NCBI GenBank assembly: GCA_003222395.1
Contig: QHWB01000039.1
Span: forward strand, 372,001-436,000
Length of the DNA stretch: 64,000 nucleotides
Source: Acidobacteriota bacterium
GTDB taxonomy: Bacteria; Acidobacteriota; Vicinamibacteria; Vicinamibacterales; CAVVIG01
Reading direction: 5' to 3'
The notes beneath the pieces were generated by a model. That model searched no databases. It was not told the origin of the DNA and saw only the letters and a program-made list of their open reading frames with translations. This document shows positions 44,158 to 52,546 of this stretch, one piece after another. The first letter of the stretch is position 1. Each line of letters starts with the position of its first letter. Position numbers and translations under genes: made by a program.

Positions 44158-45189
44158 TTAGCGGCTTGTGCTCGCCGGCTCGGTCGTCTCGATGGTGACC
44201 GGTTTGAGAAACGGCATCAGCTTCCGCAGGCCGGCGCCGACCTGTTCGATGAGCTGCGTCTGCTCCTGGTGCCGCTTCTTGTTGAACCAGGGACGTCCGT
44301 TTTCGTTTTCCGCTACCCAGTTCTTCGCATACGTGCCGTTGCGAATCTCGTCGAGCATCCGCTTCATCTCCTGACGTGTCGCGTCGGTGACGATGCGCGG
44401 GCCGCCGGTGTAGTCGCCGTGCTCGGCGGTGTCGCTGATCGAGTAGCGCATGTAGTTGAGACCACCCTGATAAATCAGGTCGACGATCAGCTTCATCTCG
44501 TGCAGGCACTCGAAGTACGCGATCTCGGGCTGATAACCGGCGTCGACCAGCGTCTGGAAGCCGGCTTTGATCAGCTCGCTGACGCCGCCGCACAGAACGG
44601 CCTGCTCGCCGAACAAATCGGTCTCGGTTTCTTCCGCGAACGTCGTTTCAAGAACGCCGGCGCGCGTCACGCCGATGCCCTTGGCGTACGACAGCGTGAG
44701 CGCGCGCGCGTGACCGGTCGCGTCCTGATGGATCGCGATCAGCGCCGGCGTGCCGGCGCCTTCCACGAACAGCTCGCGGACGCGGTGTCCCGGCGACTTC
44801 GGCGCCACCATCGACACGTCCACGTCGGACCGCACGTTGATCGTGCCGAAGCGGATGTTGAAGCCGTGCGCGAACATCAGCACGCTGCCGGCCGACAGGT
44901 TCGGCTCGATCTCTTCGCGGTACACCTTCGGCTGCGTCGTGTCGGGGATGAGCATCATCACGACGTCGGCCCACTTGGTGACTTCGGCGACGTCACCGAC
45001 CGCGAGACCCGCGGCTTGTGCCTTGGCGCGCGACCGGCTGGTCGCCGGAAGCCCGACCTTCACGCTGACGCCGCTGTCCTTCAGGTTCAGCGCGTGCGCG
45101 TGGCCCTGGGAGCCGTAGCCGATGATCGCCACCTTGCGGTCGCGGATCAGTGAGAGGTCAGCGTCTTTGTCGTAGAACAGCGTTGCCAT
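44158..45189 (-). CDS. ilvC: ketol-acid reductoisomerase
   Basis: 343 residues, class I (short) KARI: N-terminal Rossmann domain with [17 protein letters not shown] and the beta2-alphaB loop SRSRAKAQ, favouring NADPH, and a C-terminal knotted helical domain with [17 protein letters not shown]. It converts acetolactate/acetohydroxybutyrate to dihydroxy acids in valine and isoleucine synthesis. The start has AGAGGA 6 bp upstream. Last gene of the attenuated pheA-ilvDBNC run, with a REP-like palindrome between it and ilvN. Confidence 0.97.
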
Positions 45190-45235: not shown

Positions 45236-45787
45236 TCAGACCGAGCAGTCGCTCACATCGCCGCGGCCATCCGAACCGCTGCGCACCCGCATCTGCGCGC
45301 GACGCGACGGGACGTTGCCGCGCGCCATCGCGACGCGGCCGGTCCGCACCATTTCAATCACGCCGTACGGCCGCAGCACTTCGAGCAGGCTGTCGATCTT
45401 GTCTTCCGTGCCGGTCGTCTCGATGACGAGCGACTCGGGGCTGACGTCGACGATCCGCGCGCGGTACACGTCGACGAGCTGCATCACCTGCGTGCGCGCC
45501 TCGCCGGTCGCCGCAACCTTTATCAATGCGAGGTCGCGCGAGATGGACGGCGCCGTCGTGATGTCCTCGACGCGCCGCACCGGCACCAGCTTGTAGAGGT
45601 GTGCCTCGAGCCGCCGCGCGCCGTATTCGTCGGTGTCGACGACAACCGTCATCCGCGAGACGCCGGGCGTCTCGGTGTGACCCACCGTCAGCGACTCGAT
45701 GTTGAACGCGCGCCGCCGGAACAGCGACGCGACGCGGTTCAGCACGCCGGGCTTGTTCTCGACGTAGACGGCAAAGGTGTGCACCAT
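45236..45787 (-). CDS. ilvN: acetolactate synthase small (regulatory) subunit
   Basis: 183 residues. N-terminal ACT domain ([20 protein letters not shown], then [12 protein letters not shown]) and the ALS_ss_C domain (about 80-160). It confers valine feedback sensitivity on IlvB and is downstream of it. The last 20 residues ([20 protein letters not shown]) are non-conserved and run towards the REP copy. Confidence 0.95.
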
Positions 45788-45847: not shown

Positions 45848-47557
<1,710 letters not shown>

Positions 47558-47713: not shown

Positions 47714-49417
47714 CTAACCCGTCACCGCACCCGTCGACGCGGACGACACCAGCTTCGCGTATTTCGCCAGCACGCCGGACGCATACCGGGGCCTCGGCGT
47801 CTTCCATTGGGCGAGGCGCTCCTGTACGACGTTATCGGCAACTTCGAGGTCGAGCCTTCGGTTCGTCACGTCGATGACGATCGTGTCGCCGTCGCGCACC
47901 GCCGCGATCGGGCCGCCGCGCGACGCTTCGGGCGCGATGTGGCCCACCATGAAGCCGCGCGTGGCGCCGGAGAATCGACCGTCGGTGACGAGGGCGACCG
48001 AATCGCCGAGCCCCGCGCCGACGATTGCGCCGGTCACGGCGAGCATCTCGCGCATCCCCGGGCCGCCGCTCGGTCCTTCGTAGCGAATGACGATGATGTC
48101 GCCCGCCTTGATCTGCTGATGCTGGACGGCATCGAACGCCGCTTCTTCGCTGTCGAAGACACGCGCGGCCCCGCGCTGCTGCAGTCGATCGGCGCCGGAA
48201 ATCTTCATCACCGCGCCCTCGGGCGCGAGGCTGCCGCGCAGAATGACGAGGCCGCCGGTCGGCTTCAGCGGACGAGCCACCGGTCGCACGACTTCCTGAC
48301 CCGGCGTCTCGACTGCCGCAGCGGCTTCTTCTGTGAGCGGGCGGCCCGTCACCGTCGGCGACTTGCCGTTAATCGCGCCCGCCTCGACGAGCCGCTTGGC
48401 CACCAGCGGACTCCCGCCGGCGGCATGCAGATCGGTCGCAACGAATCGTCCCGACGGTTTCAGGTCGGCGAGCAGCGGCGTGCGCGCGCTGATGCGATCG
48501 AAATCGGAGAGCGAGAGCTCGATGCCTGCTTCGTGCGCGATTGCGACGAGATGCAGGACGGCGTTGGTCGATCCGCCGGTCGTCGCGACCGACGCGATCG
48601 CGTTTTCGAGCGCCGAGCGCGTGATGATGTCGCGCGGGCGGAGATTCCTGCGGAGGAGATCCATGACGCGCTCACCGGCTGCGCGCGCGACGGCCTTCTT
48701 CTTCGGATCGTTGGCCGGCACGCTGCCGCTCCCGAGCGCGGCGATGCCGAGGAATTCGAGCGCGATCGCCATCGTGTTCGCGGTGAACTGGCCGCCGCAG
48801 GCGCCGGCGCCTGGACACGCCGCGTCCTCGAGCCGGCACAGATCGGCATCGCTGAGCGTGCCGGCGGCGTGCGCGCCGACCGCCTCGAACACGTCCTGGA
48901 TCGTGACGTTCTTCCCGTTCCACGCGCCGGGGGCGATCGATCCGCCGTAGAGCGCGACGCCCGGGATGTTCAGCCGCGCGAGCGCCATCGCCGCCGCCGG
49001 AATCGTCTTGTCGCAGCCGACGAGCACGACGAGACCGTCGAAGCCGTTGCCGCGCGCGACCAGCTCGATCGAGTCGGCGATGACTTCGCGGCTCACGAGC
49101 GAGGCGCGCATCCCTTCGGTACCCATCGTGATCCCGTCGGAGATCGAGACGGTGTTGAACTCCATCGGCGTGCCGCCGGCGCTGCGGACGCCCTCTTTCA
49201 CGTCGACGGCGAGATCGCGCAGGTGGTAGTTGCACGGACCGATCTCGATCCACGTGTTGGCGACACCGATGAGCGGCTTCTTGAGATCGGCGTCGGTGAA
49301 GCCGACGGCCTTCAGCATCGCGCGCGCGGGAGCGCGATGCGCGCCGGTGGTCAGCGGATTCCCACCCAACCGCGCAGAGTCCGCGCGGTTGGGGGCCGGG
49401 GTGAATCCGTCGCTCAC
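47714..49417 (-). CDS. ilvD: dihydroxy-acid dehydratase
   Basis: 567 residues, Fe-S dehydratase of the IlvD/Edd family. Cluster cysteines are in [11 protein letters not shown] and [16 protein letters not shown]; a third is expected near the N-terminus ([12 protein letters not shown]). It yields 2-keto acids for Val, Ile and Leu. Starts with GTG at 49417, overlapping the pheA stop as GTGA. The preceding frame to 49945 is the shadow of pheA. Confidence 0.97.
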
Positions 49418-50268
49418 GAAACCACCTCGAACGGATCGGGCAGCCAGCCTTCGTGCGATTTCCAGCTCGCGTACGAGCCGAGCGTCCGCAGCGTCGGCGC
49501 GAACTCGGCGAGGTGCGCCAGCGCGCGCGCGCACGGCAGGTCGTCGCGCGCCGCCGCCACGTCGGCGTAGAACAAATATTCCCAGGGACGTCCCGGAATC
49601 GGCCGCGACTCGAGCTTGGTGAGATCGACGCCGCGCAGCGCGAACACGCTCAGCGCCTTGAACAGCGACCCCGGCTCGTTCGGCACCGAGAAGACGATGG
49701 TCGTCTTGTCGGCGACGGCGTTCTTCAGCGGCCGCCGGCTGATGACGAGAAAGCGCGTGATGTTGTCGTCGTAGTCCTGGATCGACGAGGCGAGCGGCGT
49801 CAGGCCGAAGACCTCGCCGGCGCGCGCCGACGCGATCGCCGCGGCGTCGGGCTTGCCGGCGTCGGCCACCATCTTCGCGCTGCCCGCGGTGTCGTAGGTC
49901 GCGATGATCTCGACGCCGCTCAGCGTGCGCAGGAAGCGTTCGCACTGAGCGAGCCCCTGCGGGTGCGAGTACACACGCTTCAGGCCGCTGAGCGACGCGC
50001 CGGGAATCGCCAGCAGATGATGCACCACCGCGAGCTCGACCTCGGCGACGATCGGCAGCTCGTGCTGCAGCAGCAGGTCGTAGTTGCGATGGATGCTGCC
50101 GCCAATCGAGTTCTCGATCGGCAGCACGCCGTGCGTCGCCGGACCGGCGTCGACGGCGGCGAAGACTTCCTCGAAGCTATGGCACGGAATGAGGTTCGCC
50201 TCCAGGTCCACCCGTCTGGCCGCTGCTTCGCTGAACGCCCCCGGCTCGCCCTGATATGCGATCTTCAT
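49414..50268 (-). CDS. pheA: prephenate dehydratase
   Basis: 284 residues, monofunctional (no chorismate mutase domain). N-terminal PDT domain: [33 protein letters not shown] and [11 protein letters not shown]-terminal ACT domain: [20 protein letters not shown] then the ESRP motif that binds phenylalanine for feedback inhibition. The start ATG has GGGAGAG 7 bp upstream. It is the first structural gene after the attenuator, ahead of ilvD. Confidence 0.96.
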
Positions 50269-50347: not shown

Positions 50348-50380
50348 AAAAAGGGCCATCATCTCTTGGATGATGGCCCT
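50348..50380 (-). terminator. intrinsic terminator of the pheA-ilv attenuator
   Basis: Minus strand: AGGGCCATCATC, loop CAAGA, then GATGATGGCCCT, is a perfect 12-bp stem whose last bases run directly into TTTTT. It lies 24 bp after the leader-peptide stop and 80 bp before pheA, so it can only be conditional. GGATGATG over the leader stop codon is complementary to CATCATCC in the 5' arm, giving an antiterminator. Confidence 0.85.
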
Positions 50381-50403
50381 GGTCTCACGCGTCCCTGGTG
50401 ACA

Positions 50404-50460
50404 TCATCCCCATCTATACGGGGGGCTAAAGACGACGATGGAGACGACAACCGCGATCAT
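50404..50460 (-). CDS. attenuator leader peptide, Val/Ile-rich (18 aa)
   Basis: ATG at 50460 to TGA at 50404 encodes MIAVVVSIVVFSPPYRWG: five Val and two Ile in the first ten residues, then single Phe, Tyr and Trp. The Val run precedes the antiterminator segment, so a ribosome stalled for Val-tRNA or Ile-tRNA would free it. The peptide itself is expected to have no function. There is almost no ribosome site; the predicted transcript starts only a few bases upstream. Confidence 0.75.
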   Translation of the reverse strand: MIAVVVSIVVFSPPYRWG

Positions 50461-50472
50461 CGGAACTCGAAG

Positions 50473-50502
50473 ATTAAACACCTCGGCCGGTCTAGTAGTC
50501 AA
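50473..50502 (-). promoter_or_regulatory. candidate promoter of the pheA-ilvDBNC operon
   Basis: TTGACT (50497-50502) and TTTAAT (50473-50478) are spaced 18 bp on the minus strand. Start expected near 50466, about 6 nt before the leader peptide ATG. A second, isolated TATAAT lies at 50521-50526 without a -35. Confidence 0.5.
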
Positions 50503-50530
50503 ATTGATAATCTTTACTAGATTATAAATT

Positions 50531-52546
50531 CTACTGCACCAAAGGCAGCTCGATGAAGCTCGCCTCGCCCGGACCATGATAGATCCGCTGGGTCGCCTTT
50601 CGGAAATCCTCCGGGCGCGCGAAGAAGATATTGCGTACGAAGGTTTGCGGGTTGCGGTCGTAGAGCGGGAACCAGCTCGATTGCACGTGCACCATCAGCC
50701 GGTGGCCGGGCAGAAACACGTGATTCGCCGTCGGCAGCGCGAACTTATAGAGGAGCGGCGTGTTCGGGGCGATCGCTTTCGCCGTTTCGAAACCTTCACG
50801 GTATCGGCCGCGCAGGATGTCGCCGGCGATCATGAGCTGGTAGCCGCCCATTGCCGGCTGCATGGCGACTTCGTCCGGATACACGTCGATCAGCTTCACG
50901 ACCCAATCCGAGTCGGTGCCGCTCGTCGACGCGACCAGATTCACGATCGGTTGCCCGCTGATCTTCACCGCTACGGCGAGGACATCCGAGGCGAATACCG
51001 CGACGTCCGGCCGGCCGGACGCCTCGCGCTGATCGTCCACGAGCCAGCGTGCCCAGAACGATCCGCCGGCCGGCTGAATCGGCCGCGAGCGGAACGGGAC
51101 CGGTTTCGCGGGATCTGAGACGTACTCGTCGAACGGCGCATCAGCCGCCGCGGGTGCCGTAAACCCCGCTTTCGAACCTGCGGTCAGGTACAGCGGTGTC
51201 GGTTTGATCGTGCAGCCGGTCGCGCACCCGGCCGGCCACGCCGGCAGCCGGCGCCATACGTTCGTGCCGGTCTCGTACACGGTCACCGGCGCCACGTCCA
51301 TCGGCGGCGCCGCATCCTTCAAATAATGATCGAGGAACGGCCGCAGGATCTCCTTCCGGAAGTACAAGGCCGTATCGCTGTTGAACTTCAGCGCGCCAAG
51401 CGTGCTGCCGTCGTAGATTTCCTGACCGTGATGCCATGGCCCCATCACGAGAAACACCTTGTCGTTGCCTGTGTCTTTCGGCTCGATGGCTTTGTAGACG
51501 GCCGGCGCACCGTAGATGTCCTCCTGATCCCAGAGGCTGTGCACGAGCATGACGGGCACTGTGAGCGGCTGCGCCGCGAGAATCCGGTCCACCGCCTGGT
51601 CGCGCCAGAACGCGTCGTACGCCGGATGCTCGAGCAGCTTCTGCCAGAACCCAATCTGCTCGAGGCCGTGCCTGCGCCCGAGCTCGCCGGCCGATCCGCT
51701 CTCCATGTACAAGTCGTAGTCGTCGTGATAGCCGGTCCACCACTTCGCGTCGTTCTCGCGCGTCGCTTCCTGCTCGTAGATGTAGGGCATCATCTGCTGC
51801 CGGAACGCGCCGTTGTGGAACCAGTCGTCGCCCATCCAGCCGTCGACCATCGGGTTCATCGGCACGGACACTTTGAGCGCGGGATGCGGGTTGACGAGCG
51901 CCATCAGCGGCAGGAACCCGTCGTACGAGATGCCGAGGATGCCGACGTTGCCGTTGGTTTCCGGCACGCTCCGCACGAGCCATTCGATCGTGTCGTACGT
52001 GTCGGTCGCGTGATCGACCGGCGTCGGATTCTGCGGTCCGTGCAGCGGCCGGTTCATCACGTAGTCGCCTTCCGATCCGTACTTGCCGCGGATGTCCTCG
52101 ACGACGCGGATGTAGCCGCCCTCGACGATCACGTCGGACGCGTTGTCATACCCGTCGAGGATGGGACCGAGATGCGCGCTCTGCGCGTGGCTCGTCAGCT
52201 CCGTGGCGTTGTACGGAGTGCGCGTGAGAAGAATGGGAGCGGACTTTTTTCCCAGGGCTCCTTTCGGCACGAGGATGACGGCGTGGAGCTTCACCCCGTC
52301 GCGCATCGGAATCCTCACGTCGCGGCGCTCGTAGTCGAACGCGTCGGTCACCGGCGTGAACAGCCGCGGCGTCTCGCTCGGCAGCTGCGGATACTGCGCC
52401 GTCTGCGCAAGCAGCGGCACGACGACGACGGTCGCGACCAGCAGTCGCTCGGCTAAAGCCTTCGCGCTACACAAAGCCGTCGCGCTACACCAGGCCTTCG
52501 GCCTCCACAGCGTCTTCGGCCTCCACGGACTCGTCGCGCTCCACAT
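50531..52546 (-). CDS. exported X-Pro dipeptidyl-peptidase S15 / CocE-NonD family hydrolase
   Basis: 671 residues. Alpha/beta-hydrolase with Ser in GILGISYDGFLPLMA, Asp in HSLWDQEDIYG and His in GPWHHGQE, followed by the C-terminal jelly-roll (about 450-670, VYETGTNVWRRLPAWPAG). The family hydrolyses N-terminal Xaa-Pro, ester or acyl bonds. The ATG at 52546 is 2 bp after the dcd stop with GAGG upstream. Residues 2-35 (repeated RPK and CSA units) come from REP-like repeats placed ahead of the hydrophobic signal LLVATVVVVPLLAQ. Confidence 0.9.
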   Translation of the reverse strand: MWSATSPWRPKTLWRPKAWCSATALCSAKALAERLLVATVVVVPLLAQTAQYPQLPSETPRLFTPVTDAFDYERRDVRIPMRDGVKLHAVILVPKGALGKKSAPILLTRTPYNATELTSHAQSAHLGPILDGYDNASDVIVEGGYIRVVEDIRGKYGSEGDYVMNRPLHGPQNPTPVDHATDTYDTIEWLVRSVPETNGNVGILGISYDGFLPLMALVNPHPALKVSVPMNPMVDGWMGDDWFHNGAFRQQMMPYIYEQEATRENDAKWWTGYHDDYDLYMESGSAGELGRRHGLEQIGFWQKLLEHPAYDAFWRDQAVDRILAAQPLTVPVMLVHSLWDQEDIYGAPAVYKAIEPKDTGNDKVFLVMGPWHHGQEIYDGSTLGALKFNSDTALYFRKEILRPFLDHYLKDAAPPMDVAPVTVYETGTNVWRRLPAWPAGCATGCTIKPTPLYLTAGSKAGFTAPAAADAPFDEYVSDPAKPVPFRSRPIQPAGGSFWARWLVDDQREASGRPDVAVFASDVLAVAVKISGQPIVNLVASTSGTDSDWVVKLIDVYPDEVAMQPAMGGYQLMIAGDILRGRYREGFETAKAIAPNTPLLYKFALPTANHVFLPGHRLMVHVQSSWFPLYDRNPQTFVRNIFFARPEDFRKATQRIYHGPGEASFIELPLVQ
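52445..52543. repeat. REP-like repeat array within the 5' end of the S15 peptidase gene
   Basis: Contains GCTCGGCTAAAGCCTTCGCG, CTACAC, GTCGCGCTACACCAGGCC, TTCGGCCTCCACAG and a second TTCGGCCTCCACGG: several half-copies of the GTAGCGC family in tandem, all translated. Confidence 0.7.

Follow-up and report, generated by a model that had tools for sequence, protein, structure and literature searches.

A probable ribosome-mediated transcription attenuator upstream of pheA-ilvDBNC and a family of related leaders in Acidobacteriota

The window analysed here, a 64-kb stretch of DNA (64,000 nucleotides), carries upstream of its pheA-ilvDBNC operon a site that we take, with a probability of about 0.9, to be a ribosome-mediated transcription attenuator. 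Along the minus strand, the gene of an S15-family peptidase is followed by TTGACT-18-TTTAAT, an 18-codon leader, a 12-bp terminator and pheA-ilvD-ilvB-ilvN-ilvC (Table 1). Both promoter-like boxes fall in the 70-nt gap that separates the stop of the peptidase gene at 50531 from the leader ATG at 50460. The anatomy described in the initial annotation, with leader, terminator and antiterminator ahead of pheA-ilvDBNC, was recovered base by base on the sequence of both strands, and the host, which that annotation described as looking like an acidobacterium, belongs to the order Vicinamibacterales (Acidobacteriota), judged by its closest relatives and its taxonomy. A detector scan of both strands for (i) a terminator, (ii) a region 2 ahead of it that can pair with its 5′ arm, and (iii) an ILV-rich ORF ending on region 2 returned this single site in the window.

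Table 1 Features of the pheA-ilvDBNC leader and operon in window coordinates
Feature	Position	Strand	Basis
AT-rich block TTTATAATCTAGTAAAGATTATCAA, inverted repeat ATAATCT-N5-AGATTAT, directly upstream of -35	50504..50528	-	conserved in same-family relatives
-35-like TTGACT	50497..50502	-	sequence; TTGAC in relatives (TTGGAC in a few)
-10-like TTTAAT, 18 nt from -35	50473..50478	-	TNTAAT in 18/18 same-family leaders, 8-13 nt before leader ATG
Leader peptide ORF MIAVVVSIVVFSPPYRWG, 18 residues, without Shine-Dalgarno	50404..50460	-	sequence; Val-rich leader kept in relatives
Control codons Val-Val-Val-Ser-Ile-Val-Val (codons 4-10)	50431..50451	-	sequence; Val enriched in 19 leaders
Region 1 GTCGTCTCCATC, pairs with GATGGGGATGAT at 50414-50403	50437..50448	-	predicted, RNA fold -16.9 kcal/mol
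Region 2 GGATGATG, antiterminator 5′ strand, over stop codon	50402..50409	-	covaries with region 3
Region 3 CATCATCC, common to antiterminator and terminator 5′ arm	50368..50375	-	conservation, covariation
Intrinsic terminator stem-loop, 12 bp, loop 5	50352..50380	-	terminator scan; pairs conserved in relatives
T tail of terminator	50351-50348	-	sequence
pheA, prephenate dehydratase with ACT domain	49414..50268	-	Pfam PDT, ACT; ATG 50268
ilvD, dihydroxy-acid dehydratase	47714..49417	-	Pfam ILVD_EDD
ilvB, acetolactate synthase large subunit	45848..47557	-	Pfam TPP enzyme domains
ilvN, acetolactate synthase small subunit	45236..45787	-	Pfam ALS_ss_C
ilvC, ketol-acid reductoisomerase	44158..45189	-	Pfam KARI_N/C

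The intrinsic terminator lies between the leader ORF and the first structural gene, and its annotated 12-bp stem with T tail was found as described; terminator-like sites are expected by chance at 0.5 per shuffled kilobase. The antiterminator postulated over the leader stop likewise holds, as region 2 is the exact complement of region 3 and the pairing covaries in relatives. It overlaps the terminator, and a ribosome that has reached the leader stop, a TGA at 50406-50404 (minus strand) inside region 2, is predicted to cover its 5′ strand. Predicted energies of -16.9 (1:2), -15.6 (2:3) and -21.4 kcal/mol (3:4) fit a three-state switch. In a fold that has a ribosome on codons 4-10 and still lacks region 4, the 2:3 stem forms.

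We fetched relatives with PheA as the query; same-family PheA proteins are 70-85% identical, and in same-family genomes pheA is followed directly by ilvD or ilvB. In most of these relatives the promoter block is followed by a leader that is rich in Val and ends ..G-stop, by region 2, and by GGCCATCATC..GATGATGGCC plus a T tract, as in VLVGVVVVVTVVRPTG (L020) and IPVLVVLIGRLSASG (L006), so that the comparison proposed in the initial annotation turned up both the Val-rich peptide and paired changes in both alternative stems. A hairpin kept where the leader ORF is lost, which had been named as evidence against attenuation, was not encountered: same-family relatives keep both, and L007, L010 and L014 are without both. 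In these three genomes the conserved promoter block stands directly at the pheA start codon of a pheA-ilvD operon, and the attenuator is therefore dispensable. Two records titled Bifidobacterium breve and Acidimicrobiia (L040, L041) hold pheA-ilvB regions whose PheA matches do not differ from those that genomes of the window's own family give, so their titles look wrong.

Structure statistics were derived from an alignment of 40 leaders. Terminator pairs are kept at 96.5% with double changes in 5 pairs, and antiterminator pairs at 89.2% with double changes in 4 pairs, against 19-58% paired in slid controls; these controls are the safer comparison, since covariation and conservation counts are inflated by related sequences and by the model trained on them. 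Two of the double-changed antiterminator pairs (columns 5-65 and 6-64) fall outside the terminator stem and use bases of the terminator loop, and the terminator cannot explain them. All three strands have changed together in L006 (TGACGG/CCGTCA/TGACGG), and in L166 regions 2 and 3 have changed together, along with the other arm of the terminator (GTGACG/CGTCAC).

The annotated 18-residue leader with its Val-Val-Val-Ser-Ile-Val-Val stretch is read from the codons ATG ATC GCG GTT GTC GTC TCC ATC GTC GTC TTT AGC CCC CCG TAT AGA TGG GGA TGA. Leader length varies from 18 to 47 residues among same-family relatives, and conservation is limited to the Val-rich stretch and the end, a pattern that suits a peptide whose codons are what matters. 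The run of end-product codons, Val/Ile, is conserved and frame-specific in a short leader ORF whose translation is predicted. Across 19 leaders (572 residues), composition is 24% Val, 9.3% Leu, 4.9% Ile, 3.7% Phe and 0.2% Tyr. Judged by these sequences, the conserved leader signal is valine and not phenylalanine, and pheA would thus be carried under branched-chain control. An in-frame ATG further upstream (50577, 57-residue ORF) was rejected as the leader start, since it falls ahead of the promoter and within the gene before it.

The promoter, taken alone, is the weakest part of the anatomy. The succession of TTGACT(18)TTTAAT and leader ATG is kept across the family, whereas a consensus scan called no promoter at the locus; in same-family leaders the -10 box reads TNTAAT, not TATAAT. 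All 18 same-family leaders having this box lack a Shine-Dalgarno-like tetramer and place their ATG 8-13 nt past it. In the window, 12 nt separate the -10-like box from the leader ATG, leaving room for a 5′ UTR of ~5 nt. Given the usual start-site spacing, the short distance would leave no 5′ UTR or one of a few bases. With no Shine-Dalgarno sequence present, the leader mRNA is probably leaderless or nearly so and starts at or a few bases before the ATG. The AT-rich block upstream of the -35 box recurs in same-family relatives in the form TTAT..(N)..GTAA..ATTATCAA, even in those without the attenuator, and is a candidate operator or UP element.

Conservation, covarying alternative stems and fold energies support the ribosome-mediated attenuation claimed in the initial annotation. 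From these parts, and from the match between leader codons and pathway that recurs across the wider family, we infer the start of the transcript, the stalling, the efficiency of termination and the signal in vivo. A nearly leaderless transcript would start at about 50467-50460, and a ribosome would translate the 18-codon leader. With ample charged Val-tRNA, it would reach the UGA and cover region 2 (GGAUGAUG), region 3 would pair with region 4, and RNA polymerase would stop at the U tract. With valine, or secondarily isoleucine, in short supply, it would stall at codons 4-10 and cover region 1, regions 2 and 3 would pair, and pheA-ilvDBNC would be transcribed. If the leader is not translated at all, pairing of regions 1 and 2 would favour termination.

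We built a covariance model (R1) spanning region 2 to the terminator and trained on ilv-type members. It gave two strong matches in the 7.7 Mb of the window's own genome, at the pheA-ilvDBNC locus and at G000:C47:55012-55088, on which count we rejected a dispersed repeat. Matches occur in 94 of 162 genomes of the order Vicinamibacterales. In the phylum-wide set 56 of 396 genomes have one, among them members of families that do not belong to the order; among 39 genomes of other phyla there were none at E<=0.001. We classed 142 distinct matches by homology of the downstream genes to reference proteins; the loci were partly hand-chosen and the frequencies are not unbiased. Behind these matches lie ilvD (20), ilvB (10), ilvN (9), pheA (9), homoserine dehydrogenase/aspartokinase (39), citramalate/isopropylmalate-type synthase bearing LeuA_dimer (6), threonine dehydratase (3), cysteine synthase (2), redoxin (1), a tetrapyrrole methylase, presumably siroheme synthase (1), glutamate synthase (2), LysR (5), MFS (2) and a class I tRNA synthetase, presumably IleRS (2); 31 remained without a class. 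Weak matches across the phylum (~28-39 bits) were read individually: L338, L344-L347, L349, L350 and L352-L355, without a sensible leader or gene, were treated as false, whereas L340, L341 and L343 look real despite similar scores.

The leaders differ with the operon that follows. Typical stretches are VVVVRSVGVIITP before ilvD, IIRIIAISIPGVITP before ilvB, TTIVITTTTCG and TMTRTTTITTG before aspartokinase/homoserine dehydrogenase, and CACPCCCPACC before cysteine synthase. Ile, Leu and Val make up 38% of residues in branched-chain leaders vs 15% in Thr/Met leaders, Thr and Met 29% in the Thr/Met class vs 8% in the branched-chain class, and Cys 30% in the Cys class (4 leaders) vs 1%, each difference with a permutation p of about 5e-5. 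The enrichment lies in the leader frame, with 38% ILV vs 17% and 8% in the other two frames of branched-chain leaders and 20% Thr vs 3% and 1% for homoserine dehydrogenase/aspartokinase. In the window's own family, the homoserine-dehydrogenase leaders (L246, L255, L294, L311) contain Thr but are also rich in Leu. In the curated cases the leader stop is either covered by region 2 or adjacent to it. As far as sequence can tell, the pheA-ilvDBNC attenuator is one member of an acidobacterial family that combines a stereotyped core (regions 2, 3 and 4) with differing leaders.

Several leaders of this kind touch on other pathways. Leaders with Cys runs (e.g. MLVRACACPCCCPACCRRQDVVYG) and the same core precede cysteine synthase, redoxin and tetrapyrrole methylase genes in L328, L357, L325 (f15) and L247, and are candidate cysteine attenuators. 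In the second attenuator of the window's own genome (L236:413-489) the leader, MAEMRPVTTNSLLSLVLILVGIRVPTCSG, is rich in Leu; downstream comes an ORF of 46 residues that ends GYGHGV (L236:603-743; attenuator and ORF together G000:C47:55012-55342). Small ORFs that follow Leu-rich or similar attenuators have the same ending in L314, L312, L317 and L303, with the variants GYGHGI (L243, L320), GYGFGV (L242) and GYGYGV (L261). LeuA-type 2-isopropylmalate synthases of the order (L396:1427-3046, L414:2957-4186 and others) are without the LeuA_dimer regulatory domain and also end GYGHGV, a motif pattern that 69 of the 162 genomes contain; a small Leu-attenuated protein with the tail of LeuA suggests a link to LeuA control. 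In other Acidobacteriota (L330, L333), Leu-rich attenuators stand before the gene of a small cupin protein with MEDENYLWGV at its end. Upstream of one homoserine dehydrogenase gene in the window's own genome there is a SAM riboswitch (RF00162, 76 bits; L365:1304-1448) in place of an attenuator.

The hairpin might simply be the terminator of the S15-peptidase gene, or an unregulated partial terminator, with the short ORF arising by chance. That gene lies on the same strand and ends upstream of the hairpin, and the match of region 2 to the terminator arm is by itself only modestly unusual, since a Watson-Crick run of 8 bp arose in 67 of 5000 dinucleotide shuffles. A conserved promoter and ORF, however, stand between gene and hairpin, the whole unit is kept in relatives having other upstream genes, region 2 covaries with the terminator from outside it, and leader codons fit the pathway across operons; we regard this explanation as very improbable. 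Sensing of phenylalanine would suit the position of pheA as the first gene, directly downstream, and the one Phe and one Tyr codon of the leader. It was rejected on leader composition, in which both residues are rare against valine, and outside the window's family the attenuator stands before ilvD or ilvB without pheA; we give it scarcely any credence.

A reading of the hairpins by an RNA-binding protein, a tRNA or a metabolite instead of a translating ribosome would account for a core unusually conserved across operons, as a binding element would be. The position of region 2 at the leader stop and the switching of leader codons with the pathway around a constant core speak against it, as does the lack of a riboswitch or T-box match in Rfam scans, and operons for Val, Thr, Met and Cys are hardly likely to answer to one and the same ligand; we hold it to be highly unlikely. 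Ribosome-mediated attenuation in cis is compatible with an additional role in trans of the terminated leader RNA or peptide. The mRNA released by termination would be small and leaderless, like rnTrpL of Sinorhizobium meliloti (PMC7298713); we consider such a role possible, if rather unlikely.

Outside the window's family, the attenuator is found mostly before ilvD or ilvB, and pheA therefore appears to have been recruited under an existing ilv attenuator within that family, a direction of change that we infer from this distribution. The common core across operons could reflect common descent or shared constraint. The odds seem to us even that an ancestral core was copied before many amino-acid operons of Acidobacteriota, with regions 2, 3 and 4 kept and only the leader recoded, giving a near-leaderless plug-in sensor for Val/Ile, Leu, Thr/Met or Cys. 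A phylum-wide family with a recognisable core provides annotators with a model and allows amino-acid specificity to be read from the leader. It also raises the question whether attenuators of different operons are independent inventions or copies of one module.

In Rfam scans of the region and its relatives, no leader family, T-box or riboswitch was matched (E<=1; E<=0.5), while the E. coli thr and leu leaders matched their own families as positive controls (RF00506 Thr_leader, RF00512 Leu_leader); conversely, R1 did not match E. coli thrL, ilvL or leuL. The mechanism is thus known and the sequence family apparently new. According to a 2010 survey of premature terminators, almost no acidobacterial attenuator had been given a function (PMC2965389), and a 2016 study includes leader genes of Acidobacteria in its leader-gene distance count, with no amino-acid attenuators assigned there in the accessible text (PMC4833913). 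Within partial literature coverage, which does not extend to the Lopatovskaya 2010 survey (cited in PMC4833913), we found no other report of an acidobacterial leader-peptide attenuator.

The acidobacterial locus resembles E. coli ilvL, ivbL, leuL and thrL (Rfam RF00512, RF00506) in a leader rich in amino acids of the pathway, a region 2 that stalling would expose, exclusive 2:3 and 3:4 stems and a terminator before the operon. Mycobacterial polycysteine leaderless ORFs stand upstream of cysteine genes. The Cys-run leaders of L328 and L357 are alike in preceding cysteine genes and differ in carrying the common terminator/antiterminator core; the term for the mycobacterial ORFs appears in PMC9031893 and PMC9094748. 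The ilvBNC attenuator of Corynebacterium glutamicum (leader MTIIRLVVVTARRLP) shares a Val-rich leader, three alternative hairpins and a branched-chain operon with our locus (PMC11857589), but belongs to another phylum. In S. meliloti, the trpL/rnTrpL leader transcript begins at the leader ATG and is subject to transcription attenuation, and rnTrpL and peTrpL act in trans (PMC7298713); this is a Trp operon of Alphaproteobacteria, and leaderless initiation is reported there, whereas at the acidobacterial locus it is predicted. Unlike classical Proteobacteria attenuators, the acidobacterial same-family set has no Shine-Dalgarno sequence before the leader, and whereas each E. coli operon has an attenuator family of its own, Acidobacteriota use one core for many operons.
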